Source: Cycloclasticus sp. symbiont of Poecilosclerida sp. N (GTDB taxonomy: Bacteria; Pseudomonadota; Gammaproteobacteria; Methylococcales; Cycloclasticaceae). Taken from it: a DNA stretch of 64,000 bases. The stretch's first letter is position 1. Each line of letters starts with the position of its first letter. The notes under the pieces were generated by a model. The model worked only from the letters and a program-made list of their open reading frames with translations, made no database searches and had not been told where the DNA came from. Below are positions 672 through 33,180 of this stretch, one piece after another. The stretch covers positions 1-64,000 of the forward strand of contig LWTM01000076.1 in the NCBI GenBank assembly GCA_002101205.1, read 5' to 3'. A program made the translations under genes and the position numbers.

Positions 672-1616
672 CTATCTTGGTAGCGCCAAAAATGTTCCGC
701 CATTACGCTTCGTTACTTCGCGCATTAAAATACTAAACCGATTCGTTGTGTAGTTTGAACTAAAACCGACTGCATGGACTTTTAAAATTGGCTTCCCAGT
801 AACTCTATTTTTATTTAATCGGTCTAGCGTATTAATAACCGTATCATACGACGAACCCGTATAGTCATCGCCAAAAACATAAATAGAAACACTTGCTCCT
901 GCTCTTGAATATGCCCTAAGCGCGACCTCTAAGCCCTCTACAGGGCTGCTATTTGAAAACGAGCTCCAGGTGCCCAGAACGCCTAAAACATTCTTACGTT
1001 GCTTAGCTGTGTCCTTAATCCATTTCCCAGCATAACCAGAAACCAAATAAGTACCATTGTCATTAAGAATTTGAAACCCTTTTACTTTTGGATGAATATC
1101 CAAGATATTACTTAGCACCTTCATAACACGCCCCCATATCGCCTTCATACTTCCTGATGTATCGACGATAAATATTACATAATCACTATCGACTGGAATG
1201 CCCCCTACTTCAACATCTCGTTCTTTAGCCGTATTACGTGATATAGACGCTGTTGAAATAGGCTTTGCAACCATATTCAAACCATCAACATCTTCTTTCA
1301 GTTTCCTACCAAGTGCCTCTGTGCGTTTTAAAGTCGAATTTTTAGCTGTCTCGATACTAGTAAGAGCACCTAAAAACGCTTTTTGATTTTCCAGCGTCTT
1401 ATTCGCCTTATTAAGTGCCTCTGTCGTATTCAAGAACCTCTGTTCGACCATTCGAACCTGTTTTAATAAATCAGATATAGCGTTCGTATCATCGACAAGT
1501 TCGGCATCTGAAGTCTTAGAGATTAAGACCAGCAACACTATCGCTCCAAAACCGCAAGAAATTATATCTAAAAAAGATATATTAAATATTTCAAATGCTC
1601 TCCTTGAAACCTTCAT
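672..1616 (-). CDS. VWA-domain protein with ExbD/TolR-like membrane anchor (short paralogue)
   Basis: A 314-residue protein. One N-terminal membrane helix (about residues 8-33) follows a basic tail and carries FNISFLDIISCGFGAIVLLV. Its Asp sits where ExbD and TolR carry their proton-path aspartate. A coiled-coil stretch (about 45-110) follows, then a von Willebrand A domain from about 145 with the MIDAS signature DTSGS in FIVDTSGSM. The ATG at 1616 is preferred over an upstream in-frame Met because it forms an ATGA overlap with the preceding gene. It is last in the operon and paralogous to the 357-residue gene before it. The role is inferred: a periplasmic VWA sensor or effector coupled to the MotA/ExbB-type subunit encoded upstream. 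Confidence 0.8.
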   Translation of the reverse strand: MKVSRRAFEIFNISFLDIISCGFGAIVLLVLISKTSDAELVDDTNAISDLLKQVRMVEQRFLNTTEALNKANKTLENQKAFLGALTSIETAKNSTLKRTEALGRKLKEDVDGLNMVAKPISTASISRNTAKERDVEVGGIPVDSDYVIFIVDTSGSMKAIWGRVMKVLSNILDIHPKVKGFQILNDNGTYLVSGYAGKWIKDTAKQRKNVLGVLGTWSSFSNSSPVEGLEVALRAYSRAGASVSIYVFGDDYTGSSYDTVINTLDRLNKNRVTGKPILKVHAVGFSSNYTTNRFSILMREVTKRNGGTFLALPR

Positions 1617-2686
1617 GGCCAAGATGGAGCAGGACTGATGAGTAAACCACCCGTGTAAGACGTCCACTCCCAAAACGCCGGCGCAGCTTCGGGGTCACCT
1701 TCTAAAGGAAGTAAAATTACATTCACTTTGACGCTAGGGTTTAGATTGGCATCTATAACAGATTGTCCAAAAAGCTGCTTCCTACAATCCCCTGAAATAT
1801 TTGAAGACTTACCAAGCAAAGATGAGCACTGAGAAAATGGGTTTAGCGACGCATAATTCGATGTGCCGGCCGTTGGCAACCCATCTGTAATAATATATAA
1901 ATCAGTAATGCTTGGGCTTAAGCTCTTAATTTTCTCTAAGCCCTTCTGTAAATTCGTCGCACCTGTCGGTACAATTTTATCAATACTAGAATATACCTTC
2001 TCGATTTCGCTAGAATTGTTCCCACTAAACCACGGTGAATCCCCCATAAAACGGGCTTTGTGATTAAATGCAACGACTGATGCTTTAGCCGAACTCGGCA
2101 ATCGTGCTATAAGCCAGCGCATAACCTTTTTAGACCTTAGCCATTTAGCCCCTTTTTGTTTTAAACTATCTGGGCTTGATTTTAATCGTATGATTTGAAT
2201 TAACTTCTCAGCTGTCATCGAAGCACTACTGTCCAGCAAAAAGCCAATATGCGACCCCTCAACTTTCAGGCCAAGGAGGTATTCTTCTTCTCCGACGTGT
2301 TTATCCTGTGCGAAGTCATTTGAACCTTGCACAGGGATTTCCTTTAACTTTTTTTCAAGACTTGATAACTCAAGCTGCTTACTTTTGTTGATGCTTTTTA
2401 TTTTCTCCAAAGTATCATTGATTTTTTTTATTTGAAGTCGTAATGCGTCAATATTCCCTGACCTCTCATCATTTAAGCCTTGAGTCGTGAGCAACAGTTT
2501 TTTTAAACTGACCTCCTGCTCAGTTATCTCTAGTATTTCTTCTTGAATTCTGGACTTTTCAACGGAAGAAGCATTCCCGGAATTGAATTTCACAAGCATG
2601 AAAACTAAAATGATAGCTCCTAGCCCACAAGACATAATATCTAAAAATGCGAGGTTAAAGCTCTCCGTTTTTCGACGAGCAATCAA
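1613..2686 (-). CDS. VWA-domain protein with ExbD/TolR-like membrane anchor (long paralogue)
   Basis: A 357-residue protein. The N-terminal anchor FNLAFLDIMSCGLGAIILVF (about residues 10-29) closely matches the anchor of the next gene and again places an Asp at the start of the helix as in ExbD/TolR. Residues about 40-120 are strongly helical (coiled coil). A VWA domain starts near 140 with a MIDAS-type DSSAS in FLLDSSASM, and YIITDGLP later matches the conserved VWA strand. The apparent start is TTG (ATTGCTCGTCG context) with a weak ribosome site, eight bases after the upstream stop. Probably membrane-anchored with the VWA domain in the periplasm. Function is unknown. Confidence 0.8.
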   Translation of the reverse strand: MIARRKTESFNLAFLDIMSCGLGAIILVFMLVKFNSGNASSVEKSRIQEEILEITEQEVSLKKLLLTTQGLNDERSGNIDALRLQIKKINDTLEKIKSINKSKQLELSSLEKKLKEIPVQGSNDFAQDKHVGEEEYLLGLKVEGSHIGFLLDSSASMTAEKLIQIIRLKSSPDSLKQKGAKWLRSKKVMRWLIARLPSSAKASVVAFNHKARFMGDSPWFSGNNSSEIEKVYSSIDKIVPTGATNLQKGLEKIKSLSPSITDLYIITDGLPTAGTSNYASLNPFSQCSSLLGKSSNISGDCRKQLFGQSVIDANLNPSVKVNVILLPLEGDPEAAPAFWEWTSYTGGLLISPAPSWP

Positions 2687-2694
2687 ATTAGTAA

Positions 2695-3450
2695 TTAATT
2701 TCCAATACGATTAAGTAAGAACTTTTCACAGTAATCCCGCGTATCGACTACGCAAGAGTCTTGCAAATTTTGCAACTGGTGCAAAAAGAACATCATGAGG
2801 ATGCTTATCAACAAAGCCACCAATGTCGAATTAAATGCAACGCCTAGACTATTTGTCATACCAGCAATATCCCCCGCTAAAGCCTCATCAGCCATCGATA
2901 AAGCTTGCCCAATCCCCCGAACAGTCCCTATAAAGCCGATAGATGGTATAGCCCAAATGAGATACCTTATCATCGAGTTTCCCGCCTCCAGTTTCACCGC
3001 AAGCGACTCGACACTTGTTTCGATTGCATCTGAAGTGTTTTGAACGTCATTTGTAATTAAAAAGCGCCTGACACTTCCTATTAAAGTTTGAACTAATGGG
3101 CTTTCTTTAACTTCGGCGGGTAACTCCTCTAAACTTATCAGTGCATCTTTCAATTCACCTTCACTGTCATGAATTTTTTCTAAAAAATCAATATTAAACA
3201 AATAGCGTTCATTCAATAATACGATGCATTTCGTGGCCATTAAATACCCGCCCCAAAACATCAGTATTAAGCAAAGTTCTTGTTCAAAATCTTTTAATAT
3301 TATGAATATATTTCTTGGTGTCGACTGACCCGATATGGCTGCTTCTTGAATAGACGCTGTAGCTGCTGGAATGATATAACCACTATAGACCGTATGGACC
3401 ACTACAACACTTAATGCTAAAGCAACTAAACTTTTAATTAGCTGTGTCAT
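2695..3450 (-). CDS. MotA/TolQ/ExbB-family proton-channel subunit
   Basis: A 251-residue membrane protein with predicted helices near residues 5-30, 48-75, 158-180 and 203-225. The segment WAIPSIGFIGTVRGIGQAL followed by NSLGVAFNSTLVALLISI is the hallmark of MotA/TolQ/ExbB channel proteins: a helix ending in IGFIGTV, then a helix that packs against the partner Asp helix. Known relatives use ion flow to move a partner protein. Here the only candidate partners are the two VWA proteins downstream, whose anchors mimic ExbD/TolR. This supports an energised trans-envelope complex, which is an inference from family and context. Confidence 0.85.
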   Translation of the reverse strand: MTQLIKSLVALALSVVVVHTVYSGYIIPAATASIQEAAISGQSTPRNIFIILKDFEQELCLILMFWGGYLMATKCIVLLNERYLFNIDFLEKIHDSEGELKDALISLEELPAEVKESPLVQTLIGSVRRFLITNDVQNTSDAIETSVESLAVKLEAGNSMIRYLIWAIPSIGFIGTVRGIGQALSMADEALAGDIAGMTNSLGVAFNSTLVALLISILMMFFLHQLQNLQDSCVVDTRDYCEKFLLNRIGN

Positions 3451-3451
3451 T

Positions 3452-3601
3452 TCAAATATCCACGGGGAAAGTTGCCGGAGTATTTAGACTAATAGATTGC
3501 AGTGGGCCTTTAGAAAACGCAACCCCTACAACCACTAGGCAAAGAATACTTACCATTATCAAAACATATTTTAATTTAATGTTCCTGTCTCGCTTATTCA
3601 T
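3452..3601 (-). CDS. Small single-pass membrane protein (49 residues)
   Basis: The reading frame starts MNKRDRNIKLKYVLIMVSIL and continues CLVVVGVAFSKGPLQ, ending FPVDI. It has a basic N-terminus, one hydrophobic helix (about residues 12-30) and a short outside tail. It fills the gap between the PEGA/SUMF1 gene and the MotA-like gene almost exactly: the next ATG begins one base after its stop. That tight packing and the sensible topology argue for a real gene. I know no family for it. It may be a small accessory subunit of the channel. Confidence 0.6.
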   Translation of the reverse strand: MNKRDRNIKLKYVLIMVSILCLVVVGVAFSKGPLQSISLNTPATFPVDI

Positions 3602-3611
3602 CTGTTATCCC

Positions 3612-5609
3612 TTAATGTAAGTAACGTGCCACTCTAAACCCTATATCATCCTTCCCATCGAATGCGCTATCACGGTATGACGCTCTCAAATTAGTCAACG
3701 TACCTGAACGCCAACCGGCACCTTTCACCACGTGTTTGTACCCGAGCATATCACCCAACGGGTTATATTCAGACAGGTTATCATTACGAGGTGGTATCAA
3801 AGAATAAAAATCATGCACCCATTCACGGACATTGCCATCTAAGTCAAATATCCCATCCCTATTTGCTTTAAAACTCCCTGCTGGAGACACTGATGAAAAC
3901 CCATCACCTGGGTTATTTGATTCGAACCGAATACCCGAGCCAGAAAGAACATTTGATAGGTTTGCCACCCCTGTAGGGATCACCGGTCTATTACCCCAAG
4001 TAAATACAGTCTGCTTGTTTTTCCCTGACTTTCGAGCTAACCACTCCCACTCAGCTTCACTCAATAGACGATAACCAGTAGATGACGCATTAAAACCAAC
4101 ATACTGACCACCTTTAAATTCGTAAAAAGGTTCTTTAACCCCATCTACCTTACTAAGCCAATTGCAAAAACTTACCGCCTCAATCCAGCTTATATTTGTT
4201 ATTGGTAAGTTTGCAACACCTTTTCCCTTTTGAAATTTTAAATATTGCTCATTCGTAACCTCGTACTTACCCACATAAAAAGCTTTATTTAAAACAACTT
4301 TTCTCTGAAACTCGTTAGCTAGTTGTCCACTTTCATGCCGAGGTGAACCCATTGAAATTTTATTAGGCCTAAACAATTTAAGCTCAATACCTGATTCATG
4401 GACATAGTTTTCTTTTGCCTGACTGAGCGCAAGTTCTTTTTCTGATTGTAATTTCACATCAAGCTTCTTAAGTTCCGAACTTGATGGGGTTATCGTCTGT
4501 TCAACCGACTCGTACCCATTTAGTTTAAACTCAACTCTATGTTGAACAGCTGGCAGCTTAATCTCAAGTGGTGTTAACCCGTAGGGACGCCCATTTATCA
4601 AAACGTTGGCTGCTGGGTGTGAAATCAGCTTAACGATACCCGTTTCGGGTTTTAGCTTAAAAACGATTTCTTTTTCCTCACTGGACTCAACCCTAAAGTT
4701 AACAGTCCCTGCGAAGTAACCTTTTTTATGATACGTCGAAATATTGTTTTTAAATGCTGTTACTGACAATGACTGGCCTGCAGACACCTTCTTACCATTT
4801 AATAACAACACACCGCCTGGAGGGTTCGCAATAATGCTCACGAATCCCCTTTCAAGCTGAAGTTTATAATTTCGAGATAGCTCTAGTTTCTTATTCGTTA
4901 TACGAATTTTCTCCACTATAGTTTCATACTTAGGGAGGCCTATTTCGATATTATAAGCTCCCCCAAGCATCCTTTTAGTTATGGGTGTTTTACCAATAGA
5001 CTTACCATTGATAGAAACTTCGGCGCCTAAAGGGCTCGAAGACAGAGCAAGGCTACCAACAATTGGATTTAACTTTAGCCGTGCATGTTTAGTTTCCCCC
5101 CTGTTCAAACTAATACTTTGAGTGCTAGGTTCATAAAATGGGTTTTCAGCAGTTATTTCATGGGCCCCCGCTTCAACTTCAACCGATAGGCCGGCCCCTA
5201 TTGATTTCAGCTTTCCATCAACAAACCAATGGGTACTTTCTTCCGCAATTTCGGTTGTAGCAATCACCTTTCCAGGCAACGGGGTTAATTGAATTAATAA
5301 AGGCCCGTCACTATTTTCAGGCACTTCTTTATTGACAGTATAAAAACCCTTAGAGGCCACGGATACTAAAGCTTTATCAGAGATAGAATAAAGTTTACTT
5401 CCTATTACAAAACCCAACCCTTCATTTAAACCTATTGTTTGATTTAATCTGGCTTCTTCTGGAATAACCTCAATAGTAATAACCCACATTTTAACCATTA
5501 AGAGGAAAAGAGTAGCCGCTACAACCGTGACAAGACATGCCGTTACAACATAAAATTGTCTTTGCTGCGTTTTTGCTTTGTCAATTTCTTTATTAAATTC
5601 GTTCATCAC
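3612..5609 (-). CDS. Membrane-anchored PEGA-repeat protein with C-terminal SUMF1-type domain
   Basis: A 665-residue protein: one N-terminal membrane helix (about 20-42), a beta-rich linker, three successive PEGA-type modules (about 180-250, 250-320 and 325-395, with GAEVSINGKSIGKTPI and AANVLINGRPYGLTPLEI), then a formylglycine-generating-enzyme/SUMF1 fold (about 410-665; YKVGKYEVTNEQY-like opening, SWIEAVSFCNWLS, GYRLLSEAEWEWLAR, FDLDGNVREWVHD, DDIGFRVAR). Bona fide FGE has two reactive cysteines near the end. The matching stretch here (KGAGWRSGTLTNLRASYRDS) has none, so sulfatase maturation is unlikely and the domain is probably for binding or structure. Its start overlaps the upstream gene by 17 bases. 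Expected to face the periplasm. Confidence 0.8.
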   Translation of the reverse strand: MMNEFNKEIDKAKTQQRQFYVVTACLVTVVAATLFLLMVKMWVITIEVIPEEARLNQTIGLNEGLGFVIGSKLYSISDKALVSVASKGFYTVNKEVPENSDGPLLIQLTPLPGKVIATTEIAEESTHWFVDGKLKSIGAGLSVEVEAGAHEITAENPFYEPSTQSISLNRGETKHARLKLNPIVGSLALSSSPLGAEVSINGKSIGKTPITKRMLGGAYNIEIGLPKYETIVEKIRITNKKLELSRNYKLQLERGFVSIIANPPGGVLLLNGKKVSAGQSLSVTAFKNNISTYHKKGYFAGTVNFRVESSEEKEIVFKLKPETGIVKLISHPAANVLINGRPYGLTPLEIKLPAVQHRVEFKLNGYESVEQTITPSSSELKKLDVKLQSEKELALSQAKENYVHESGIELKLFRPNKISMGSPRHESGQLANEFQRKVVLNKAFYVGKYEVTNEQYLKFQKGKGVANLPITNISWIEAVSFCNWLSKVDGVKEPFYEFKGGQYVGFNASSTGYRLLSEAEWEWLARKSGKNKQTVFTWGNRPVIPTGVANLSNVLSGSGIRFESNNPGDGFSSVSPAGSFKANRDGIFDLDGNVREWVHDFYSLIPPRNDNLSEYNPLGDMLGYKHVVKGAGWRSGTLTNLRASYRDSAFDGKDDIGFRVARYLH

Positions 5610-7026
5610 AAATCACGTCAAAAGTTATTGATTTTATTCCAGCTGGAACTTTAGCCTCCACAATAACTGATCGAAAGCCACGCCTTTTCCCCTCAATAGT
5701 GTAGCTATTAGGATACAACTGGAGCACCTTATACTTACTGTATCCAACTTTACCAAGGCCCTTTATTGAAATGCTCGTTCTATTATCCGAAACAATAGTT
5801 ACACTTACTTTGGTTTTGTATGCAAGTAGTAACTCGCTAAGGCGCATTACCTTTTTTAATAATAACTCACTCCTTTCGGAGTAAGTTATTGAAGCCTTAA
5901 TTGCCTGCTCAGCCTGAAGGTATACCTTGTTCGAAGAAAGACGCTCATGCTTTCTAATGAAATTGGATAATACTGCTATTTGGTGCAACATATCTTTTGC
6001 TAAGGCATTCCTTGAAAGTAAAACATCATTTTTCAAATGCTCTTTCAAGGCTTGGTCAGTTATTAGCACAAGCCCTGCCCAGTTTTCATTATTTAATGCC
6101 GCTAATGATTTTTTTAATGCTGAAGTTAAGCTAACCCTTTTTTCGTACTTATTAATTAAGCCTTCCAGCAAATTTAACTCTTCACTAACCGATCTTACTT
6201 CTTTTGCCGCCTTATAACGCGACCTTGCCTTATTCAACTCACCCTTTTTAATATGCCTAATTCCTTTTTCAATATAAGCAGAAAAAATCAAATCATTTTC
6301 ACTTTTTTCAAGACGCTTAAGCTGAGGCAGTAACTCAAGTCTTTTGGGGTCAACTTTCAATATTTTACGTATTAACTCTATTTCTTTAGCCGTGTTATTT
6401 TCAACTAATGCAACTTTCATTTCTTCAAAAAGCTCAGTCACTAAAGGTAAGGTTTCAATACGCTCATGAAGCATCTTAGCAAGAGCATCATCAGGTTTAA
6501 GTGCTAATGCTTGATTGATATGCAGTTTGGATTTTGAATAAGAAAACTCAGCAAAGAATTCTTTGGCCTTCTTTAAAGAAACATCAAATAAATTATCTTG
6601 CTCTTGTAAAATATTTTCTGCTTTAGACCGCGCTTTTCTTAGCGTATTAACGGCTTCAACATAGTTCGCAGATGAAAATTGTTTTAATGCACTCTTTTTT
6701 AGTTCTAATAGCTTCTCTTTCAACCCATATTCAATAAGTTGCCAGTTCAACCCAATTAAACGAGGCTCTGTTACTTCTTCATAAATTTGCAAAAGCTCAA
6801 TGAAATTGTCTCTATAGTTATTGTCTGAACCGACAGGGCCATCAGCGCCACTAAGAGTCACTGCTTGTACAGGTAAGTCTTGTTTAGAAATTGACGGTGA
6901 AGTAGTAAGGCTCACCCCTGAAATAAACACTAAAACCAATAAACCCAGGCCAAATATAATTATTAAATTTTTCCGCCTAGCCCTATAAGCTTCCTTGTTA
7001 GCTCTTGCAAGATCCTCTCTCAACAT
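5593..7026 (-). CDS. Membrane-anchored helical-repeat protein with PEGA-like end
   Basis: A 477-residue protein. After a basic tail, one membrane helix (about residues 22-42, IIIFGLGLLVLVFISGVSL) is followed by a long helical region rich in Lys, Glu and Leu with TPR-like hairpins (for instance FAEFSYSKSKLHINQALALK at about 170-190). A beta-rich end (about 400-477, TVVSDNRTSISIKG... to FDVICDERI) resembles a PEGA module. It lies five bases after the upstream lipoprotein gene and overlaps the next gene, so the three are probably co-translated. I assign no enzyme activity. The build suggests a periplasmic scaffold of the same complex. Confidence 0.7.
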   Translation of the reverse strand: MLREDLARANKEAYRARRKNLIIIFGLGLLVLVFISGVSLTTSPSISKQDLPVQAVTLSGADGPVGSDNNYRDNFIELLQIYEEVTEPRLIGLNWQLIEYGLKEKLLELKKSALKQFSSANYVEAVNTLRKARSKAENILQEQDNLFDVSLKKAKEFFAEFSYSKSKLHINQALALKPDDALAKMLHERIETLPLVTELFEEMKVALVENNTAKEIELIRKILKVDPKRLELLPQLKRLEKSENDLIFSAYIEKGIRHIKKGELNKARSRYKAAKEVRSVSEELNLLEGLINKYEKRVSLTSALKKSLAALNNENWAGLVLITDQALKEHLKNDVLLSRNALAKDMLHQIAVLSNFIRKHERLSSNKVYLQAEQAIKASITYSERSELLLKKVMRLSELLLAYKTKVSVTIVSDNRTSISIKGLGKVGYSKYKVLQLYPNSYTIEGKRRGFRSVIVEAKVPAGIKSITFDVICDERI

Positions 7027-7031
7027 TGTTC

Positions 7032-8288
7032 TTAAAGCTGAGCTTCCGGTGTTTCCTCTTGTAGGTACATCTTTTTAAGAAAAGCCCGCCATTGTGAAAA
7101 TTGTTGACTAGCATCACCGGTTAATTTAACCGTTTTTTGCTCAAATGCAACGACTTGTGGCGCAACTTCAAGATCAATAGATCTACCTAATTCTTCTAAT
7201 GCGTCCCGATGGATCTTCGCTTCAGCTGATGTTTTAAAACTCTCATTGATTAAAACCGCCCCCCCGACAGCACCCGCAATCGCGACCAAATCCTTACCTG
7301 AACCGAGGTTACCCTTCGAACTTGAGCCAGAGACGAGAGAAGCAATAGAAAGCCCTACTGCCAATACGCCAAGTACAGCTTGACCAACTGCTTTATTTCG
7401 CGCCTCACCAGCTGCTATCGACTCCAACATACTTTCTTTTTGCCATATCGAATAGCTGTCATTCATACTCGAATTGAATAACTCATACTCATCTTGCAAG
7501 TGGTCTACAAAAAGTTGGTCACGGACCCTAATTGCTTTTGTTCTTATAAGCATAGGGTCATCTTTACTTGGGAGACCTAATAATTCAACATGTTCCCCAT
7601 CAATCTTTAAATACTCTTTAAACGCATCATCCGAAAAGCTAGCCGCAAACCGTAAATCAGTTAAACTTTTTAAGGTGTTTAATTCAACAGCAGAGAAACC
7701 ATCGAGCTTATCTACAATATATTCTGCAGCCTCCGCAAAAACAGGAATATAAGGGTCTTTACCACTATTTCTATATCCGTCATAAAATGCTTCGTCAACC
7801 TCATGGTCAAAATCTTTACTAAACCATCGGTCCCCAGAGATATCATAAAGTTCGAGATTTATTTCAACCGTCCTACCATCAGACTCCTCAATAGAACCCA
7901 AAATATAAATATCTCCAGTTGCATCTTGATTTGGAGTGACCCTAATAGCTCCAAAGCGATTTGTCTTTATTAACTCTTCTTTTAATATAAGCGCAAAACG
8001 GTTGGCTTCCGCACGCCTTAGCTCAGGCCAAACACCATCTTTTACGTAATCTACATTCTTAGATAACCCAGGGTTAAATGTTGGAATAATAATATCCAAT
8101 CTTGGCTTGTTATCACTGTAAGTAACAATCCCATTTTCATCAACCTCTGAAGATAGCTTGGGCCCGACACCGCCAAAATTGCCACGACTTCCAGGAATTA
8201 CGCAAGCAGAAAGAAAGAAAGTGCTAATCATAAAAACCAACAATGCTTTTTTGAAGCACTTGTTTTTATTTAAAAAAATATTACTCAT
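7032..8288 (-). CDS. Outer-membrane-type lipoprotein of the VWA/MotA operon
   Basis: A 418-residue protein with a signal peptide ending in the lipobox LSAC (Cys near residue 29), so a lipoprotein. The next residues are not Asp, consistent with transport to the outer membrane. The region around 95-190 (LKEELIKTNRFGAIRVTPN, YILGSIEESDGRTVEI, ELYDISGDRWFSK) resembles the folds of CsgG-like or LPP20-like lipoproteins that compute combined 'activity' terms. Residues about 300-350 (VGQAVLGVLAVGLSIASLVS, IAGAVGGAVLI) are a glycine-rich hydrophobic stretch of glycine-zipper type. The family call is tentative. It would supply the outer-membrane end of the proposed machine. Confidence 0.65.
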   Translation of the reverse strand: MSNIFLNKNKCFKKALLVFMISTFFLSACVIPGSRGNFGGVGPKLSSEVDENGIVTYSDNKPRLDIIIPTFNPGLSKNVDYVKDGVWPELRRAEANRFALILKEELIKTNRFGAIRVTPNQDATGDIYILGSIEESDGRTVEINLELYDISGDRWFSKDFDHEVDEAFYDGYRNSGKDPYIPVFAEAAEYIVDKLDGFSAVELNTLKSLTDLRFAASFSDDAFKEYLKIDGEHVELLGLPSKDDPMLIRTKAIRVRDQLFVDHLQDEYELFNSSMNDSYSIWQKESMLESIAAGEARNKAVGQAVLGVLAVGLSIASLVSGSSSKGNLGSGKDLVAIAGAVGGAVLINESFKTSAEAKIHRDALEELGRSIDLEVAPQVVAFEQKTVKLTGDASQQFSQWRAFLKKMYLQEETPEAQL

Positions 8289-8297
8289 ATCAAACCT

Positions 8298-8890
8298 CTA
8301 ATCCATTCCCTTATATTTACGATATTCATTCCAGAGTTTTTTACGAACAATTTCATCTGACTCGTTCATCGCTGCATTACGAATTTGCGCTTCAAACACA
8401 CTATCATTATCAGCCGGAGGTATATCATCCGGAACCTTTCCATTTGTGAATGCACCTGTTTGACCCTTTGCATCTGAGTTGCCTTCTAAGCCATCTGTAC
8501 GATCATTATCAGCTTGGTTCCCCTCTATTAAACTTTCAGAATCTAGCGCGCCTGAGTTAGATGTAGAGTGGCTACTATTACTGTTGATTGGCTACTATCT
8601 GTTGATTGGCTACTATCTGTTGATTGGCTACTATCTGTTGATTGCGTTGTTTGACAAACATCGAATTTATTTAAAGCTTTAAAAAAAGAGCGTTCCATAG
8701 ATTCCAGCTTTTCCGCACGGGTTAACTCCTCTTCGTCTTTGTAATCTATATACGCGTGTGTACAATCTACCTTTGGCTTGTCAGGAAGTCCAGTAGCATT
8801 AACTGCCCCAGTATAACAATTTCCTATCACACAAAATATTATTATAGATTTGTATATCACAGATACTTTACTCGCAACTGTTTTCAACAT
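8298..8890 (-). pseudogene. Exported repeat-containing protein split by a +2 frameshift in its repeats
   Basis: The first frame (8890 to 8543) encodes a hydrophobic export signal, a Cys-containing segment (KPKVDCTHAYIDYKDEEEL) and SQSTDS repeats, then runs out of frame as TVIVATLHLTQAR. The frame offset by two continues sensibly as SNSSHSTSNSGALDSE, EAQIRNAAMNESDEI and KLWNEYRKYKGMD, stopping at 8298, ten bases before the lipoprotein start. The break coincides with an extra TA in one 18-bp repeat copy (ACTATTACT instead of ACTATCT). Repaired, the protein is about 196 residues. It is the first gene of the envelope operon. The break is either a real mutation, slippage-based phase variation, or a sequencing error. 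Confidence 0.6.
8570..8644 (+). repeat. 18-bp tandem repeat inside a coding region
   Basis: GTTGATTGGCTACTATCT is repeated exactly three times (8583-8636), with a partial fourth copy after it and a degenerate copy before it that carries two extra bases. On the coding (minus) strand each unit encodes six residues (SQSTDS in rotation), so unit gain or loss keeps frame, but the two-base insertion does not. Confidence 0.9.
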
Positions 8891-8985: not shown

Positions 8986-9711
8986 CTAGACACTCAACTG
9001 TTTCATAAAATAGTTATATTCAAACCGCCTAGGCGATAGGTCATCTCTGTTTCCATGTCGCCGAGTCGCGTTATAAAACAACTCAATGTAATTAAAAATA
9101 TCTTGCTTACCATCTTCTCGTGTTTGGTAAACCCTTTGCTTAATTCATTCACGTTTTAACAACTGAAAGAAGCTTTCAGCGTGTTCAGCCAGCCATAGCT
9201 TGTGTACTGGCATCCTCGATCAGAATGCACAATGATTTCACCTTTAGGCTTACAACGCCAACAAGCCATTGTAAGCGCATTAAGTGCCAAGTCTGTATTA
9301 ATTCGTTCACTCATCGGCCAGTCAACAACTTGTCTTGAAAATAAATCAATAACCATAGCAAGGGACAACCAGTCCTCGTAGGTTGTAGGTAATGTCTGTT
9401 ACCCAAACTGTATTTGGGTTTTCAACATTAAACGCTCGGTTTAAATGGTTTGGTGCTGCAACTGAGACTTCGCCACTGCGGTAGTGTGCTTTCCGTCTGT
9501 AGCCACGTTGTGATGCAATGCCAGCCTCATGCATACGCCGATAAACACGGTTCCTTCCACAACGCTCACTAGCAGCTAGCATGCCCTTATAGATCTTTCG
9601 GCAGCCATAAATACAGCCACTTTCAAGCCAAAACTGTTTGATATAACCTAGATTCGCATAATAAGCACTCATCACGATTCTATTGGCAAAAACATTGTGC
9701 CTGCAAGGCAT
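8986..9711 (-). pseudogene. IS3-family transposase (orfB) pseudogene
   Basis: The minus strand reads, in shifting frames, FWLESGCIYGCRKIYKGM, NPNTVWVTDITY, a displaced TYEDWLSLAMVIDLFSRQVV, GEIIVHSDRGCQYTS, and finally LFYNATRRHGNRDDLSPRRF, ending KQLSV. These are the integrase-core blocks (D, D and the C-terminal E region) of IS3-family orfB. At least two frameshifts and a stop interrupt it, and orfA is missing. It separates the envelope operon from the ATPase gene. Confidence 0.75.
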
Positions 9712-9822
9712 GAGAGAAGCGAGCGAAGAGCTGTTAAACGAAGGCCTAAACCCTTTGCATTATTAATCGTGCCCAGACATGAAGGAGATAAGATATCGAA
9801 GTAAATATACCACTAAGAAGGA

Positions 9823-9846
9823 TTAACTTAGTGCCATTCGGGTCAG
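9823..9846 (+). repeat. 24-bp sequence shared with 41499-41522
   Basis: The 24 bases beginning TTAACTTAGTGCC and ending GGGTCAG are identical to 41499-41522. This has the look of a transposon end. It overlaps the stop codon of the large ATPase gene (9843-9845), so that stop may be supplied by the element. Confidence 0.7.
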
Positions 9847-12800
9847 CCCTTTAATTTATAAGATACAGAAAAATCTTTAGGTTCTATTCTGAATTGATCT
9901 TCATCCTCTAAATTAACAGGATGTATTCTTTTAATTTCATCCCCTACTAAAAATATTTTGTATTTATCCTTGTGTTTTTTTGCGAAGTCTAGCTCATTCT
10001 TGCTAATATAAAACATATCATTGGCAAGTGTTTTTACTTCAACGTACCACCATTTATTGCCATCTTTATATTTAAAATCATGGTTGGCATATTTATTTGT
10101 TTCAGAAACCCATTGTACATTTTCCTTTCCATATTCTTTTACCAAAAACTGATTGACGCTAGCCTCTGATCGCATCCCTGATTTTTGTTTATTCTTTTGT
10201 TGCTGATCACCATTGCCCCCATGTTTTGTTACACCACTTTTCTCTGACCGCTTTTCTGGTGTCTCTAAAATTGCATCGCTTATTTCTAGAGTTGGTGTCT
10301 CTTTTTTAGTTTTTTGATTTCCTATTTGTTTTTGTTCTTGCTCTTTTTGATTTTTTATTTCTTTTTCTAAGGCCTGCTCATTGTTTGGAAAATACAACAG
10401 ACTTTCTTTTTTTCCGCCGTCTTCTATGTAAGTAAAATCAGCGCCTAACCCTCTTTTGCGACTACGATATAAATCATGAAAGTCTAAATAATTATTGAGT
10501 TCTAACAGTTTGAATCCAAATGTTTTTTTGACAAAAAGATCATATTCAGCTTCGTAATCCACCACTAATTTTGTTGAGCAATCAGTAACTGGTGCTTTAT
10601 ATTGATTAACTTTTGTTAAAAATTCTGATTCTTGCGATTTATCAATGCAGTCTTTATGTAAATTTCGTCTAAATTGATAATTATTATCACTAAAACATTC
10701 TTCTAATTTTTGTTGATGATAGCTTGATAAGCTAATTTTATTGGTTTGCCCATTATTAAAATCTGAAATCTTAATTTTTAATCGTTTAAAAATATCAATA
10801 ACAACTTCTGCATTTTTCTTATCCGTTAAATCCCCATACTCAATTTGACCATTTTTAATATCAATCTCTAATTCTTGGTTAATAAGCTCTAAATTATTGT
10901 TGTGATTACCCGTATATTCTTTCTTTTTTAATTCATATATCTTGTGCCAAAAATTATAAAAATCGCTGGCAATCCCTAGCAAATCTTGGGCTTCATTGAT
11001 AGCATCACTACCGATATGGTCTTTAATATCTCGCTTAATATTATTTTCACTGTCTTTAATGCAATTTTTAAATTTATCTGTATTTTCTAACCCAAATATT
11101 AGGCCAACAATATCACCAAAAACCGTATAAAAATCATATTCTTGCTTTATGTAGCCTAATCTTTCATTTGGAATTTTGATTAAATAATCGTTGTCACCAA
11201 TTAAATAATCATAATCCGATAATTCATAGTCTTCATCCTCAATTTTACAACAGATTTTTTGGCAAAGTTTTATGCTCAACTTATCAATCTTTTTAGCCTC
11301 AGCCTCACCATCTCTATTTTCCAAACCCCCAACTCGATAAGCCAAAACATAAGGTTTAATTCTTTCAAAAAACTCTTGAAAATCATCATTGATACCTGAT
11401 AATTCTTGCTTGTTAATTTCAGGTTCAAATCGACTTAAATCTTTAATGTCAAAAAAACCAATAACCGCCTCTGTTCTCTTTTTAGGGAAGTCAAAAATTG
11501 CTAGCCTATCGGTACATTTTTTTGGCAATTTAACGCCACCTGCATAATAAACTTCATCTTGAGGAAAATAGCCAAGGTCATCACCTTTTTTAGCAAATAA
11601 AGTAATTTTATGGGTTAAAGAAGAATTGGTTTTGTTTGTTTTAAAGCTTTCTAAGTATGTTTTTTGTGCCAACTTACCCTGTGGGTCTTTTTCTGGCAAA
11701 GAATTTAAAACCTCTTCAATTTTTGGAAACGATAATTCACTAAACTTGTCAACTGCCCCCCATTTTAATAACAAACTTTCAATGTCAGCTTTATTGAAAT
11801 TATTTGACTTAAATAATGAATGATCATAATCAACACATTTATCATTTACCAAATTATTAACTTTATTGTTACTACTAATTAAACGATTTTCAAATAGACT
11901 TTTAAGTTGGAGTGGAACTTCATTTTCAACAGGGATTTCTTTCGGTCCATTCTGTGTCCTTTCATCTGAAAGGAGCCAAGTGATAATATTTTCAATAGGT
12001 AGTTTTCGAATCTCATCAAATCTTTCAATTTTTATTAAATTGACTGACTTAGATGATGTTGTTTTATTCTCAACAAATTTGGCGTATTTATTAACCCCTA
12101 GCCATATAAAAAAATTCTCGATTCTTTTCTTGTCATCGCCTAACTTATAAATGCTAATGTCTGCCAAAAAATCATTGTCCTCAAAAATATCGCCAAACAA
12201 TTCTTCAGTTAATCCCCCTGATGGATAAGTCTTAGATAAATAAAGATTTTTAGCACTTTGTGATTTTTGTATTTTGTCTAATAATTGTATTTTTTGTTCT
12301 GATATTGGTATAGAATCTGAATAGTTTTTATACAAGAAGCTTATCGTCGACTTTATTAAATCTGTTGGTTTTTCATCTCCTTTTTCTAACTCTGAATTAG
12401 TGCTAGTAATTACCTTACTAAATATTTCAAGCTTGTCATGCGGCTTGAGTTGAGTAAACTCTTTCCAATTTTCGTTAGGCTCCTCATGTTCATTCATAAG
12501 CTCAAATAATTCTTGGCTTATAATTTTTATATCCACATAATTAGGCAATGAAAATTTTTCTGTCGCTGGTGCGTAAATATCACCTAAACCAACCAATTTT
12601 CCATTTTCATCTGTTAATAATGGATAATTATATTCATAATTATTCTTTATTAAATGATAAATAAACTTTACTCTAACAACGTTTTTTTTGATTTCCTGAT
12701 TAACTAACTTTATACCTTCTATATTTATCCTATCAAATTCATTCAACTCTAATTCGCTTAGTAATTCTTGCTTGTAGGATGGTTTTAATAAATAAGGGGT

Positions 12801-14024
12801 GTGTTCGATAAAATTATTGTTATGAATAAAATTTGTAAAATCATTGTTATAAACAATGTCTGCTTTCTTTCGATATTCGTTATCAAGACAAGGATAAATT
12901 TCGCTTTCTTCAATGGCTGTATCTATTTCCCTATAAAAACCTAACCCATCCAAAATCTCATTCCGGTGTTCGTATTGCAAAAAAATTAAGGCTTGATAAT
13001 TAGCTTCGTCTTGCTTTAAATTTAATGCAGTTTCAATAATAAACTCTACCAACTTCTTAATAATAAACTTGTTTTTAGGATTATCAGTTAGTTGGTTTCT
13101 TGAGCTATCTAATTCAAAAGTACCATGCACAATAAAGGGCAAATCAACCTTTATTTTTGTTGGGAAATAAGCAAATAAACAATTATTCCCATTGTTTGTT
13201 AATTCATCGTTATAAGCAATTTTTAATTCATATTTATTATTTTTATCATTTTCCCCTAAGTATTCATTTGGCACTTCTCCAGAGGCATCTTTAATTGTCC
13301 ATTTGGTCACTGGACTTTTGATGGTTTTTATCTCGCCATCGATATCTATTTCAATGCTTTGCAAATGATTTAAATACAATAAAACCTCCTCTTTTATTGT
13401 ATTTATTTGATTTTTAATGTCCTCTAAGAAATTTTCTTTGTATTGGATATTAATAGCAGTTGTCCAATGCTTGCCGTCAAATTCTTGTATTTCTGGAATG
13501 GCTAAAACTGCCATTGGTATTTCATCATCCAATAAATTTCGTTTTTGCTTTATTTCTTCTCTTTGCTCTAGTTTTGTTAAATCTATATAATATTTTTTTA
13601 TGATTTCTTGAGAAAAGCAAATTTTAACGCCGTTAGTCAATATGGATATTTCATCAGCCCAATTAATAATAGAACGAAAGCCTAAGCCTTTGTTGCCAAT
13701 ATATTGATTTTGATTATTGGTTTTTGAACTTAAATTAGCATACATAATTGATTTAACACCTTCAACGCTAAACGAATCACAATTCTCCCCATTATTGCTA
13801 ATGGTTAATACTTTCTGTTCAGTGTCTAATTTAATTGAAACTTGTTGAGATTGAGCGTCATCAGCGTTTTGTAGCAATTCCAATAATTGCCTACCGTTAT
13901 ACTCTTTTACAGTTTCCTTTTCGGTGCCGTAATTAGAAGGTATTAGATTAGAATCCGCTCTGTATCCTTCCTTTCTTTGTTGAATTAGACCTTCAACTTC
14001 TGTCTTAAAATCTTGTGTTTGCAT
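9843..14024 (-). CDS. Giant sacsin/HSP90-type ATPase with C-terminal DUF3883 nuclease-like domain
   Basis: A 1393-residue soluble protein. The N-terminus (about 1-200) is a GHKL/HSP90-type ATPase of the sacsin N-terminal kind: LLELLQNADDAQ (N box), ISNNGENCDSF and IGNKGLGFRSIINW (glycine-rich lid). A long undefined middle follows. A charged Gln/Lys-rich linker (about 1225-1290) leads to DUF3883 (about 1295-1380), with GMRSEASVNQFLVKEYG, NHDFKYKDG and WWYVEVKTL, a D...EVK pattern of PD-(D/E)XK nuclease-like folds. Proteins pairing these two ends are often found in defence islands, and here it lies beside a methylase ruin and toxin genes. The gene is intact and far more AT-rich than the core genes, implying transfer. 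The anti-phage role is an inference. Confidence 0.8.
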   Translation of the reverse strand: MQTQDFKTEVEGLIQQRKEGYRADSNLIPSNYGTEKETVKEYNGRQLLELLQNADDAQSQQVSIKLDTEQKVLTISNNGENCDSFSVEGVKSIMYANLSSKTNNQNQYIGNKGLGFRSIINWADEISILTNGVKICFSQEIIKKYYIDLTKLEQREEIKQKRNLLDDEIPMAVLAIPEIQEFDGKHWTTAINIQYKENFLEDIKNQINTIKEEVLLYLNHLQSIEIDIDGEIKTIKSPVTKWTIKDASGEVPNEYLGENDKNNKYELKIAYNDELTNNGNNCLFAYFPTKIKVDLPFIVHGTFELDSSRNQLTDNPKNKFIIKKLVEFIIETALNLKQDEANYQALIFLQYEHRNEILDGLGFYREIDTAIEESEIYPCLDNEYRKKADIVYNNDFTNFIHNNNFIEHTPYLLKPSYKQELLSELELNEFDRINIEGIKLVNQEIKKNVVRVKFIYHLIKNNYEYNYPLLTDENGKLVGLGDIYAPATEKFSLPNYVDIKIISQELFELMNEHEEPNENWKEFTQLKPHDKLEIFSKVITSTNSELEKGDEKPTDLIKSTISFLYKNYSDSIPISEQKIQLLDKIQKSQSAKNLYLSKTYPSGGLTEELFGDIFEDNDFLADISIYKLGDDKKRIENFFIWLGVNKYAKFVENKTTSSKSVNLIKIERFDEIRKLPIENIITWLLSDERTQNGPKEIPVENEVPLQLKSLFENRLISSNNKVNNLVNDKCVDYDHSLFKSNNFNKADIESLLLKWGAVDKFSELSFPKIEEVLNSLPEKDPQGKLAQKTYLESFKTNKTNSSLTHKITLFAKKGDDLGYFPQDEVYYAGGVKLPKKCTDRLAIFDFPKKRTEAVIGFFDIKDLSRFEPEINKQELSGINDDFQEFFERIKPYVLAYRVGGLENRDGEAEAKKIDKLSIKLCQKICCKIEDEDYELSDYDYLIGDNDYLIKIPNERLGYIKQEYDFYTVFGDIVGLIFGLENTDKFKNCIKDSENNIKRDIKDHIGSDAINEAQDLLGIASDFYNFWHKIYELKKKEYTGNHNNNLELINQELEIDIKNGQIEYGDLTDKKNAEVVIDIFKRLKIKISDFNNGQTNKISLSSYHQQKLEECFSDNNYQFRRNLHKDCIDKSQESEFLTKVNQYKAPVTDCSTKLVVDYEAEYDLFVKKTFGFKLLELNNYLDFHDLYRSRKRGLGADFTYIEDGGKKESLLYFPNNEQALEKEIKNQKEQEQKQIGNQKTKKETPTLEISDAILETPEKRSEKSGVTKHGGNGDQQQKNKQKSGMRSEASVNQFLVKEYGKENVQWVSETNKYANHDFKYKDGNKWWYVEVKTLANDMFYISKNELDFAKKHKDKYKIFLVGDEIKRIHPVNLEDEDQFRIEPKDFSVSYKLKG

Positions 14025-14209: not shown

Positions 14210-15044
14210 TCAGATATAAACTGCTTAATTGAACCTTTTTGTGGTGCGAGTGCTAGAACACTGCCTGCTTGTGCATATGGATTAATGAAAAAAGCAGTTA
14301 TTAATGACTTAAATGAGCCATTAATGAATTTGTGGCAACAAATATTGGAAAACCCTGAGAATCTAGTAAAACTGTATGAGCAGTTATGGAATGAGCAACA
14401 TACAGATAAAAAGGCATACTTTTTTAAAGTGCGTGAACAGTTTAATCAAATACATCAACCCCACCACTTATTATATTTGTTGGCAAGAGTAGTGAAAGGA
14501 TCAGTAAGATACAACTCAACAGGTACTTTTAATCAAAGTGCTGATAACAGACACTGTGGCATGCGTCCTAGCACAATGAGGAAAAACATTATCAATGTTT
14601 CTTCTTTACTTTTGGGCTGTACAGAACTTTCGTCTGTTGATTTTAGTGAGGTTATAAAAAAAGCGAATAAAAACGACCTTGTATATGGACCCACCTTATC
14701 AAGACACGTCCTTCACAAGAGATCATAGATATTTAAATGGTCTGTCTTATGATGGTTTTGTTGATGCCCTAAAAATAATGAACAGTAAAAACACTTCATA
14801 TATTATTAGTTACTATGGAAAAACAGGCAAAAAGCCACATGGTAAGTCGTTGCCAAAACCCTTATCACTTAAACATTTACATGTTAAAGCAAGGGATTCA
14901 AGCCAAGCTCCTTTATTGGGTGGAAATGATGAAACAATAGAATCACTATATTTGTCCGCAACCTTAGTTGACCGTTTAAATAATCAAGAGCAATTTGCAC
15001 CTGAGATTCAGCAAGAAATACGGAAGAAGCTAATGTTTGCATGA
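14210..15044 (+). pseudogene. D12-class N6-adenine DNA methylase (Dam-like) pseudogene
   Basis: Frame 1 reads LIEPFCGASARTLPACAYG (the FxGxG AdoMet motif region), NDLNEPLMNLWQQI and SVRYNSTGTFN. After a small deletion near 14690 the next frame continues YMDPPYQDTSFTRDHRYL and SYIISYYGK. DPPY is the catalytic motif IV of adenine methylases. The N-terminal FxKWxGGK block is missing, replaced by an IS5-like end upstream, and the frame is broken at the catalytic motif itself (VYGPTL in place of VYMDPPY). A functional enzyme would be about 280 residues. It is almost certainly dead. Confidence 0.8.
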
Positions 15045-15246: not shown

Positions 15247-15465
15247 ATGGCCACAGCGGTTAAACTTTCTAGTGAACTTGTTAGGGATGCTTCAATCAAC
15301 GGAAGAGCGCAACACAGAAGCACCCCCAAACAAATTGAGTATTGGGCTAGAATTGGCAAAATTGCCGATGAAAACCCAGATCTTCCATTAGGCTTCATCA
15401 AGGGCATTTTAGTTGGCATGGAAGAGGCAAAGGCGGGTGATGTCTCCGAGTATACATTCGAGTGA
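15247..15465 (+). CDS. ParD-like antitoxin
   Basis: A 72-residue protein opening MATAVKLSSELVRDASINGR, then RSTPKQIEYWARIGKIADEN and PDLPLGFIKGILVGMEEAKAG. This is the pattern of the ParD-like antitoxin family (ribbon-helix-helix-type DNA-binding protein that neutralises and represses with its toxin). An AGAGG ribosome site precedes the ATG. Its stop overlaps the GTG start of the toxin gene by four bases. The pair is intact, unlike most accessory genes nearby. Confidence 0.8.
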   Translation: MATAVKLSSELVRDASINGRAQHRSTPKQIEYWARIGKIADENPDLPLGFIKGILVGMEEAKAGDVSEYTFE

Positions 15466-15734
15466 TAGTTAAGCAATCAGGTAGCTTTAAACGTGCTGTT
15501 AAAAAGATGCATAAATCCGAAAAGGTGGCGCTCGATGCTGCTGTAAAAGAAATTAGTGTTCACCCTGAAGTGGGTGATGCAAAAGTTGGTGACTTGACAG
15601 GTATCCAAGTGTTTAAGTACAAGCATAACACTCAATTATATTTGCTAGCCTATGAGTACATGGAATATGAACTTGCTTTAACTTTAATTAAACAAGGTAC
15701 GTATGAAAACTTTTACTGGGATTTAAAACAATAG
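15462..15734 (+). CDS. RelE/ParE-family toxin
   Basis: A 90-residue basic protein (SFKRAVKKMHKSEKVALDAA, DLTGIQVFKYKHNTQLYLLA, ALTLIKQGTYENFYWDLK) with the compact alpha/beta plan of RelE/ParE toxins. These act either as ribosome-dependent mRNA endonucleases or as gyrase poisons; the sequence alone does not decide which. It starts with GTG inside the end of the antitoxin gene, so it is translationally coupled. Length is normal for the family. Confidence 0.8.
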   Translation: MIVKQSGSFKRAVKKMHKSEKVALDAAVKEISVHPEVGDAKVGDLTGIQVFKYKHNTQLYLLAYEYMEYELALTLIKQGTYENFYWDLKQ

Positions 15735-17193: not shown

Positions 17194-17345
17194 GAGACCT
17201 CAGTACGCGTACTTACAGCACCCGCTACGCTTGTGCTGGCAGTATAACCAACAACTTTATCCACCTTCATGAGACTTCTCCTATTTTTCCGTCAATTGCG
17301 CTGCTTTTAGGTCATTTAATGCCTAAAAAACCGAGCTCATTCCTG
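17194..17345 (+). repeat. GC-rich dispersed repeat, copy at 17.2 kb
   Basis: It opens GAGACCTCAGTACGCGTAC and continues CAGCACCCGCTACGCTTGTG, then a tail (CCAACAACTTTATCCACCTT and CTCCTATTTTTCCGTCAATT) shared with 41380-41445. The tail leads into a transposase C-terminus on the opposite strand. Bases 17116-17193 hold nothing recognisable. Confidence 0.65.
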
Positions 17346-17377
17346 TTTTTAGTGCTTTTCCATGATTTTTGACACAG

Positions 17378-17530
17378 TTACCCCGCATAACTTGGCTCTG
17401 GTATACCGTAGAGCGTTAAAAACTTAGCTCCTTTGCGAATGTTCGCAGCCATGGCAGCTAAACCATAAACGGTTGCATTTTTGGCAAGCCCCATAAATCG
17501 TGTTCTGCCAAGCCCATAATGTCTCTTATA
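17378..17530 (-). pseudogene. IS5-family transposase C-terminal fragment
   Basis: The minus strand reads YKRHYGLGRTRFMGLAKNAT then VYGLAAMAANIRKGAKFLTL, ending at a stop after GIPEPSYAG. The YGLGRTRxMGLxKN block is the conserved C-terminal E region of IS5-family transposases. The frame breaks upstream of 17530. Its position directly inside the 17.2-kb repeat ties that repeat family to an IS5-type element. Confidence 0.65.
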
Positions 17531-17584
17531 CGTGCTGAGCAGGCGTTTGTTCTGTCACCTGGTTTCATTAAATGAGGTTGCAGC

Positions 17585-18040
17585 GTGATAAAGGTAGGTA
17601 TTGTAGGTGGTACAGGGTACACCGGAGTTGAATTACTCAGGTTGCTGGCTATGCACCCGAAGGCAAGCGTTCAAGTGGTGACGTCTCGCGCGGAAAAAGG
17701 CTTGCAAGTTGACGCGGTGTATCCGAACCTGCGTGGATTTAACGATTTATGCTTTGTCGAACCTATCATTGAAAATCTTACGACTTGCGACGTGGTGTTT
17801 TTTGCCACGCCCAATGCAACGGCTATGTATATGGCGAAAAATCTATTGGATGCAGGTATCAAAGTCATTGATTTATCCGCAGACTTTAGGCTAAAAGATG
17901 TTGCTGAGTGGGAGAAATGGTACGGTGCGAGCCATGTTTGTCCAGAGTTATTGGAGCAGGCTGTTTATGGTTTGCCTGAAACAAACCGCGAGGCAATAAA
18001 AGGTGCGCCGCTGAAGGAAAAACGCTTCTGCTCCATTTAG
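17585..18040 (+). pseudogene. argC: N-acetyl-gamma-glutamyl-phosphate reductase, C-terminally truncated
   Basis: ArgC reduces N-acetylglutamyl phosphate in arginine synthesis. The GTG-started frame carries the NADP-binding start ([20 protein letters not shown]), [14 protein letters not shown] and [12 protein letters not shown], all typical. It diverges after [13 protein letters not shown], just before the NPGCYPT motif with the catalytic Cys, and stops at 151 residues instead of about 345. The catalytic and C-terminal domains are absent, so this copy cannot work. Transposase debris lies directly upstream. Another argC elsewhere is likely if the cell makes arginine, since argB at 60.5 kb is intact. 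Confidence 0.85.
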
Positions 18041-33000: not shown

Positions 33001-33180
33001 ACGTTCCCCGCTAGCGCCGCATTCAGGTTTCTACCTTAAACCAAAGAGTTTAAGTGGGAGTCGGACATTTGCATTAGGCTTCTCTAAAAGAGCTTGCGCA
33101 CCAACAAAATGATCTGTCTTCCCGAGTAGGATATTAGGTCCAAGGGTAATTCGCCTTATCTCGAACACCGCAGGGAACGC
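33001..33180 (-). ncRNA. ssrS: 6S RNA
   Basis: The stretch between zapA and fau, the standard ssrS position. On the minus strand the 5' part GCGTTCCCTGCGGTGTTCG can pair with the 3' part ending GCTAGCGGGGAACG. The interior has GGTGCGCAAGCTC, AGAGAAGCCTAA and an ACTTAAAC...GGTTTAAG hairpin, then ACCTGAATGCGGC, block by block like known gammaproteobacterial 6S RNAs. At about 180 nucleotides the length is right. It would bind sigma-70 RNA polymerase in stationary phase. Confidence 0.85.

Follow-up and report, generated by a model that had tools for sequence, protein, structure and literature searches.

The head gene of a predicted envelope motor operon is split by a two-base offset among 18-bp tandem repeats in a Cycloclasticus symbiont contig

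The analysis of the window, the whole 64,000-nucleotide stretch of contig LWTM01000076.1, revealed an operon on the minus strand whose first gene, called here the head gene, is one gene split by a two-base offset in an array of 18-bp repeats. This could be explained by a frame-breaking indel at the edge of the array, in a disordered linker of the head protein, and we consider this account of the split gene probable. The parts of the split gene are as follows.

8570-8643, minus strand: tandem array; the frame changes in its 20-nt unit (8570-8589), which adjoins three exact 18-nt units (8590-8643)
8543-8890, minus strand: N-terminal frame of the head gene, 115 aa; a hydrophobic N-terminus is followed by the conserved N module and three repeat units, and about a dozen residues foreign to the family precede the TAG stop
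8298-8591, minus strand: C-terminal frame of the same gene, covering what remains of the linker and then the conserved C module

A frameshift inside 18-bp tandem repeats at the head of the operon had been proposed in an earlier note on this DNA, and TRF, which lists two arrays in the window at its default score, placed this one at 8569-8644 with 4.1 copies, 96% matches and a score of 134. The exact units occupy 8590-8607, 8608-8625 and 8626-8643; the chance expectation for three exact copies is 0.00, and three were reached in 0 of 100 shuffles. The copy with two extra bases, also described in that note, is the 20-nt unit that follows them and is the only unit out of step. As had been reasoned there, 18-bp units alone keep the frame, being six codons long, and it is the two-base offset that breaks it.

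The second frame runs for 97 codons without a stop, from 8591 to the TAG at 8300-8298. Of these, 81 lie beyond the stop of the first frame, which bears out the expectation of about 80 further sensible residues, and the C module was found in this frame with a match of 6.2e-23. The N module matched the window's first frame at 2e-11 and 1.9e-06 in a six-frame search of the loci. The C-terminal frame was correctly said to end just before the lipoprotein gene; the distance between its TAG and the lipoprotein ATG at 8288 is nine bases, not ten. Residue blocks of both frames were scored against the linker composition of relatives. First-frame residues past the last exact unit (VIVATLHL) scored poorly; in the second frame PINS and NSSH were slightly negative, LIEG and TGAF were negative and the other blocks were mostly positive. 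These scores locate the shift to the fourth unit or immediately before it.

The two halves can be recognised as N and C modules of one protein because relatives hold both in one frame. In the first two relatives the ORF directly before the lipoprotein is unbroken (222 and 216 aa) and consists of conserved modules at the N and C termini joined by a low-complexity linker. Named genomes were scanned and yielded 55 loci; a six-frame search found the head gene in 52 of them and in L062, a fragment from the order-wide scan. The search gave no head-gene match in L011, L024 and L037, where hardly any sequence precedes the lipoprotein match. The resulting set of 53 leaves out the window's own locus (L001, L002, L060) and duplicates of L005 and L040 (L003, L004, L061); it holds 52 distinct head proteins, those of L012 and L013 being identical. 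In all 53 loci the head gene is in one open frame of 157-388 aa, counted from stop to stop or to a contig edge. Both modules were detected in one frame at 45 loci, the N module reaching only E 0.003-0.007 in L008, L044 and L045. The C module alone was detected at the other eight, of which L017 starts at a contig edge and L049, L051 and L054-L058 have diverged.

A class-wide sample extended this comparison: the lipoprotein was present in 27 of 369 genomes, the window's included, and the 26 other loci were examined. At 23 loci the C module lies in one frame of 195-441 aa, with the N module detected in some only; L081, L084 and L085 repeat proteins already counted as L019, L045 and L044. No head-gene match was obtained in L083 and L095, both cut by contig ends. 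Of the 24 further class-wide loci, 23 were thus in one frame. The exception, L107, comes from a complete, single-contig genome (G494) in which a TAG interrupts the lipoprotein and the gene after it appears in pieces; the N module of its head gene was not found at E < 0.05. Judged by its sequence, the L107 operon appears to be decaying as a whole.

The operon is widespread in bacteria. Its lipoprotein was found in 3 of 61 sampled genomes (60 relatives besides the window's own) and in 4 of 311 genomes of the order, the window's included in both counts; it was not found in any of 17 genomes of the same genus, 9 of them at least 90% complete, and repeating the search with a profile gave the same result. 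The same head protein is present in G019, of the window's order, and in DRLZ01000141.1 (L040), a Crenotrichaceae MAG placed by NCBI in Methylococcales, Gammaproteobacteria. That the operon is split here, decayed in L107 and not found in the 17 same-genus genomes suggests that it may be dispensable in some lineages. A second intact copy of the head gene was not found in the same genome. Pfam gave no match for the head protein beyond a stray RhlB match at 0.0043 in one of 36 relatives, and a PDB sequence search gave none for the head-protein profile or for the lipoprotein. The head protein is small and probably exported.

In 40 relatives whose two linker borders matched our search patterns, the linker measures 68-222 aa (median 86), and its composition in relatives is richest in G, S, A, T and E. 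Tandem repetition within the gene was seen in 17 of 53 relatives (TRF score of at least 30). The best-scoring arrays have periods of 63, 21 and 18 bp, all multiples of three, with a few weak ones of 8 and 11 bp. An AlphaFold2 model of the head protein of Methylophaga aminisulfidivorans, encoded in one frame at L034 (mean pLDDT 63.7, pTM 0.29), has helices at 9-15, 52-81, 178-189 and 193-207, and its linker lies around or under pLDDT 50, so that the linker is predicted to be poorly ordered. A whole-codon change in the length of a repeat array within such a linker is unremarkable, and the linker appears to be hypervariable and to tolerate in-frame repeat change.

The head gene is followed on the same strand by genes for the lipoprotein, a TPR-like protein, a PEGA-SUMF1 protein, a MotA/TolQ/ExbB-family protein and two vWA proteins.

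7032-8288, minus strand: lipoprotein-like protein, 418 aa, open; fold weakly like PelC and TolB
5593-7026, minus strand: TPR-like protein, 477 aa, open; all TPR matches below the Pfam threshold
3612-5609, minus strand: PEGA + FGE-sulfatase (SUMF1) protein, 665 aa, open
2695-3450, minus strand: MotA/TolQ/ExbB-family motor protein, 251 aa, open; MotA_ExbB E 8.2e-14
1613-2686, minus strand: first vWA protein, 357 aa, open; VWA_2 7.8e-07; N-terminal helix with FLDIMSCG
672-1673, minus strand: second vWA-like protein, 333 aa; N-terminal helix with FLDIISCG

The vWA match of the last protein is under the Pfam cut-off (16.7 of 27 bits, E 0.011). Inspection by eye also showed a possible small ORF (3451-3611, minus strand) in the gap that separates the SUMF1 gene from the motor gene; it has about 50 codons and includes a hydrophobic stretch. 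Among 56 loci searched, relatives were found for the lipoprotein at 55, TPR at 50, SUMF1 at 49, the motor protein at 46, the first vWA at 42 and the second at 36, counts in which many loci are cut by contig or flank ends and some vWA matches share one ORF. The N-terminal helix motif (FLDIMSCG/FLDIISCG type) was matched at 23 of the 56 loci, many of which end before or within the vWA genes. The structure model of the lipoprotein (mean pLDDT 72.8) gave weak Foldseek matches, the best to PelC (E 0.0038) with TolB next and none at or below 0.001. Relatives of the lipoprotein were not found in the viral contigs or plasmids searched. PADLOC gave no match for the seven operon ORFs except weak ZorA-type matches to the motor protein (5.6e-4); these are explained by the general MotA/ExbB family, and an anti-phage system was rejected.

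If the sequence is translated as it stands, the product would be the N module with about a dozen wrong residues, and the conserved C-terminal helical module would be lost. Independent translation of the C half is unlikely, as its frame contains no ATG, GTG or TTG before 8399. The stop of the first frame lies 254 nt from the lipoprotein ATG. In relatives, by comparison, the first candidate lipoprotein start mostly falls between slightly inside the head gene and tens of bases past its stop, although true starts may differ. A polar effect on the next gene is therefore possible: 254 nt left untranslated before the lipoprotein start might lower its expression.

A number of other irregularities were observed near the operon. 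Just upstream of the head gene is an IS3-type remnant (9156-9836, minus strand) with HTH_21 and rve in separate ORFs in two frames; a partial copy with 82% identity is present on contig C67. A D12-class adenine methyltransferase (14285-15044, plus strand) is out of frame, its DPPY motif continuing in a different one (14679-15044). Its well-matched part is separated from that motif by a run of seven A (14656-14662), which might make this gene a better candidate for slippage than the head gene. At 17585-18040 (plus strand) there is a 151-aa argC fragment comprising the NAD-binding domain. Contig C75 of the window's genome carries a nearly identical second copy (about 98-99%) and, elsewhere, a full-length argC with an open frame of 346 aa (near 176430 and 196871), and the fragment appears to be a partial duplication. 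The region of about 300 bp upstream of the fragment (17229-17534) recurs on contigs other than C75 in eight further copies of at least 270 bases with 79-95% identity, and there are many shorter copies; it is perhaps a MITE-like family of this genome. The same part of the window encodes a 1393-aa sacsin/NO VEIN-type protein (9843-14024, minus strand), which matches the TmtA defence model PDLC03964 with 1028 bits, is encoded in DNA with a G+C content of about 30% and had no counterpart in the 20 other genomes searched, and a ParD-like/ParE-like toxin-antitoxin gene pair (15247-15734, plus strand). A 6S RNA (33001-33179, minus strand) is the sole Rfam match at gathering score in the window.

Twelve housekeeping proteins in the window align with almost the full length of their Pfam families: ammonium transporter, transketolase, phosphoglycerate kinase, sulfate permease, ribose-5-phosphate isomerase, ribulose-phosphate epimerase, HAD hydrolase, anthranilate synthase I, GidA, flavoprotein/DFP, dUTPase and amino acid kinase. 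They were drawn from 20 ORFs, among which only the D12 and argC fragments were judged besides these; a DUF445 protein matches part of its profile. Lesions nearby together with twelve intact-looking housekeeping genes favour real lesions over a generally poor assembly.

Overall, the most likely explanation is early decay in a hypervariable linker, with sequence error ranked next. The array would grow and shrink by whole codons, so that the linker evolves fast without harm, until one event that was not a multiple of three split the head gene. This is consistent with the single frame in every one of the 53 relatives, with decay across the operon in the one broken relative, L107, with the variability of the linker, with broken genes nearby, with the failure to find the lipoprotein in the 17 same-genus genomes and with the near-complete Pfam matches of the twelve housekeeping proteins. 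Against it, the 97 codons of the C half contain no stop and the remaining six genes of the operon are also open, which leaves the one event as the only sign of decay; in addition, tandem repeats are sites where assemblies and genomes both go wrong. Function has presumably been lost, through an indel that is presumably recent.

The alternative that survives best is an error of assembly or consensus in the odd unit, the gene being intact in the organism. We regard this as a real but clearly lesser possibility. The site falls among tandem repeats, the rest of the gene is well preserved, all 53 relative loci have it intact, and the assembly consists of 77 contigs. However, the array spans only about 76 bp and common read lengths are longer, the change is not in a homopolymer, and the intact look of the twelve housekeeping genes indicates that errors are not widespread. 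Either a fixed indel or a sequence error accounts for all the data.

The earlier note had suggested phase variation, and this suggestion found no support. Unequal exchange of the single 20-nt unit would switch the head gene and perhaps change how the next genes are expressed. The frame of the C half has stayed open, and the 20-nt unit alone in the array would shift the frame when gained or lost, but the offset does not fall in a simple repeat of non-triplet units, gain or loss of 18-nt units leaves the frame unchanged, and the 53 relatives share the same frame whatever their linker repeats. With one odd unit only, its loss would be hard to reverse, and we consider such switching very unlikely. 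In a search for same-species variants, the exact double unit was not found in viral contigs. Slightly less probable still is a compound switch, in which 18-nt units would tune the length of the linker and unequal exchange of the 20-nt unit would flip the frame, turning the head protein on or off. If true, it would mean that the head protein of a proton-driven envelope motor is toggled, with lipoprotein translation lowered in the off state. Finally, programmed ribosomal frameshifting or transcriptional slippage that joins both frames in expression was rejected as highly improbable: the frames do overlap by 49 nt (8591-8543) and both encode conserved modules, but the overlap contains no homopolymer of four or more and no X XXY YYZ heptamer, and no relative seen requires such a shift.

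As a lesion, the split is ordinary. It points to a conserved protein of two modules that belongs to no Pfam family and has a hypervariable, disordered linker, heading a predicted proton-driven envelope motor operon.

The closest known counterpart of the operon is a family predicted in section 8 of PMC12204202 (Mol Biol Evol 2025), in which TolQ-like genes are accompanied by paired vWA proteins and no tolR. The vWA partners there have a transpore helix (TPH) carrying an aspartate, which is predicted to insert in the TolQ-like pentamer and to couple proton flow to force. In the window a TolQ/ExbB-family gene likewise lies beside two vWA proteins, each with an N-terminal helix containing an aspartate, and no ExbD/TolR match was found among the operon ORFs scanned (ORFs of at least 60 aa). 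On sequence grounds the operon thus appears to fit these predicted motor clusters. It differs in that the head gene is split; moreover, section 8 describes no head protein, lipoprotein or PEGA-SUMF1 protein for the TolQ/paired-vWA family and names a TPR gene for another vWA family. No paper on the whole operon was recognised in a literature search; in the parts seen, PMC12204202 deals with the motor and vWA part and PMC7159879 with other systems. Simple-sequence contingency loci, such as those of Neisseria meningitidis treated in PMC5084427, share with the window a tandem repeat inside a coding sequence and a change of frame. That paper, in the part concerned, treats repeat units of 3, 6 and 9 nt as frame-preserving; the window's unit of 18 bp is likewise a multiple of three, its gain or loss does not shift the frame, and the frame change comes from one irregular unit. 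The split gene also resembles frameshifted pseudogenes, in which a conserved gene is split by a short indel while orthologues are intact and other broken genes lie nearby; here the orthologues run uninterrupted across the break at 53 of 53 and 23 of 24 further loci. It differs from them in that the downstream part shows no damage and the other operon genes are open, which indicates that the event is either recent or not real.
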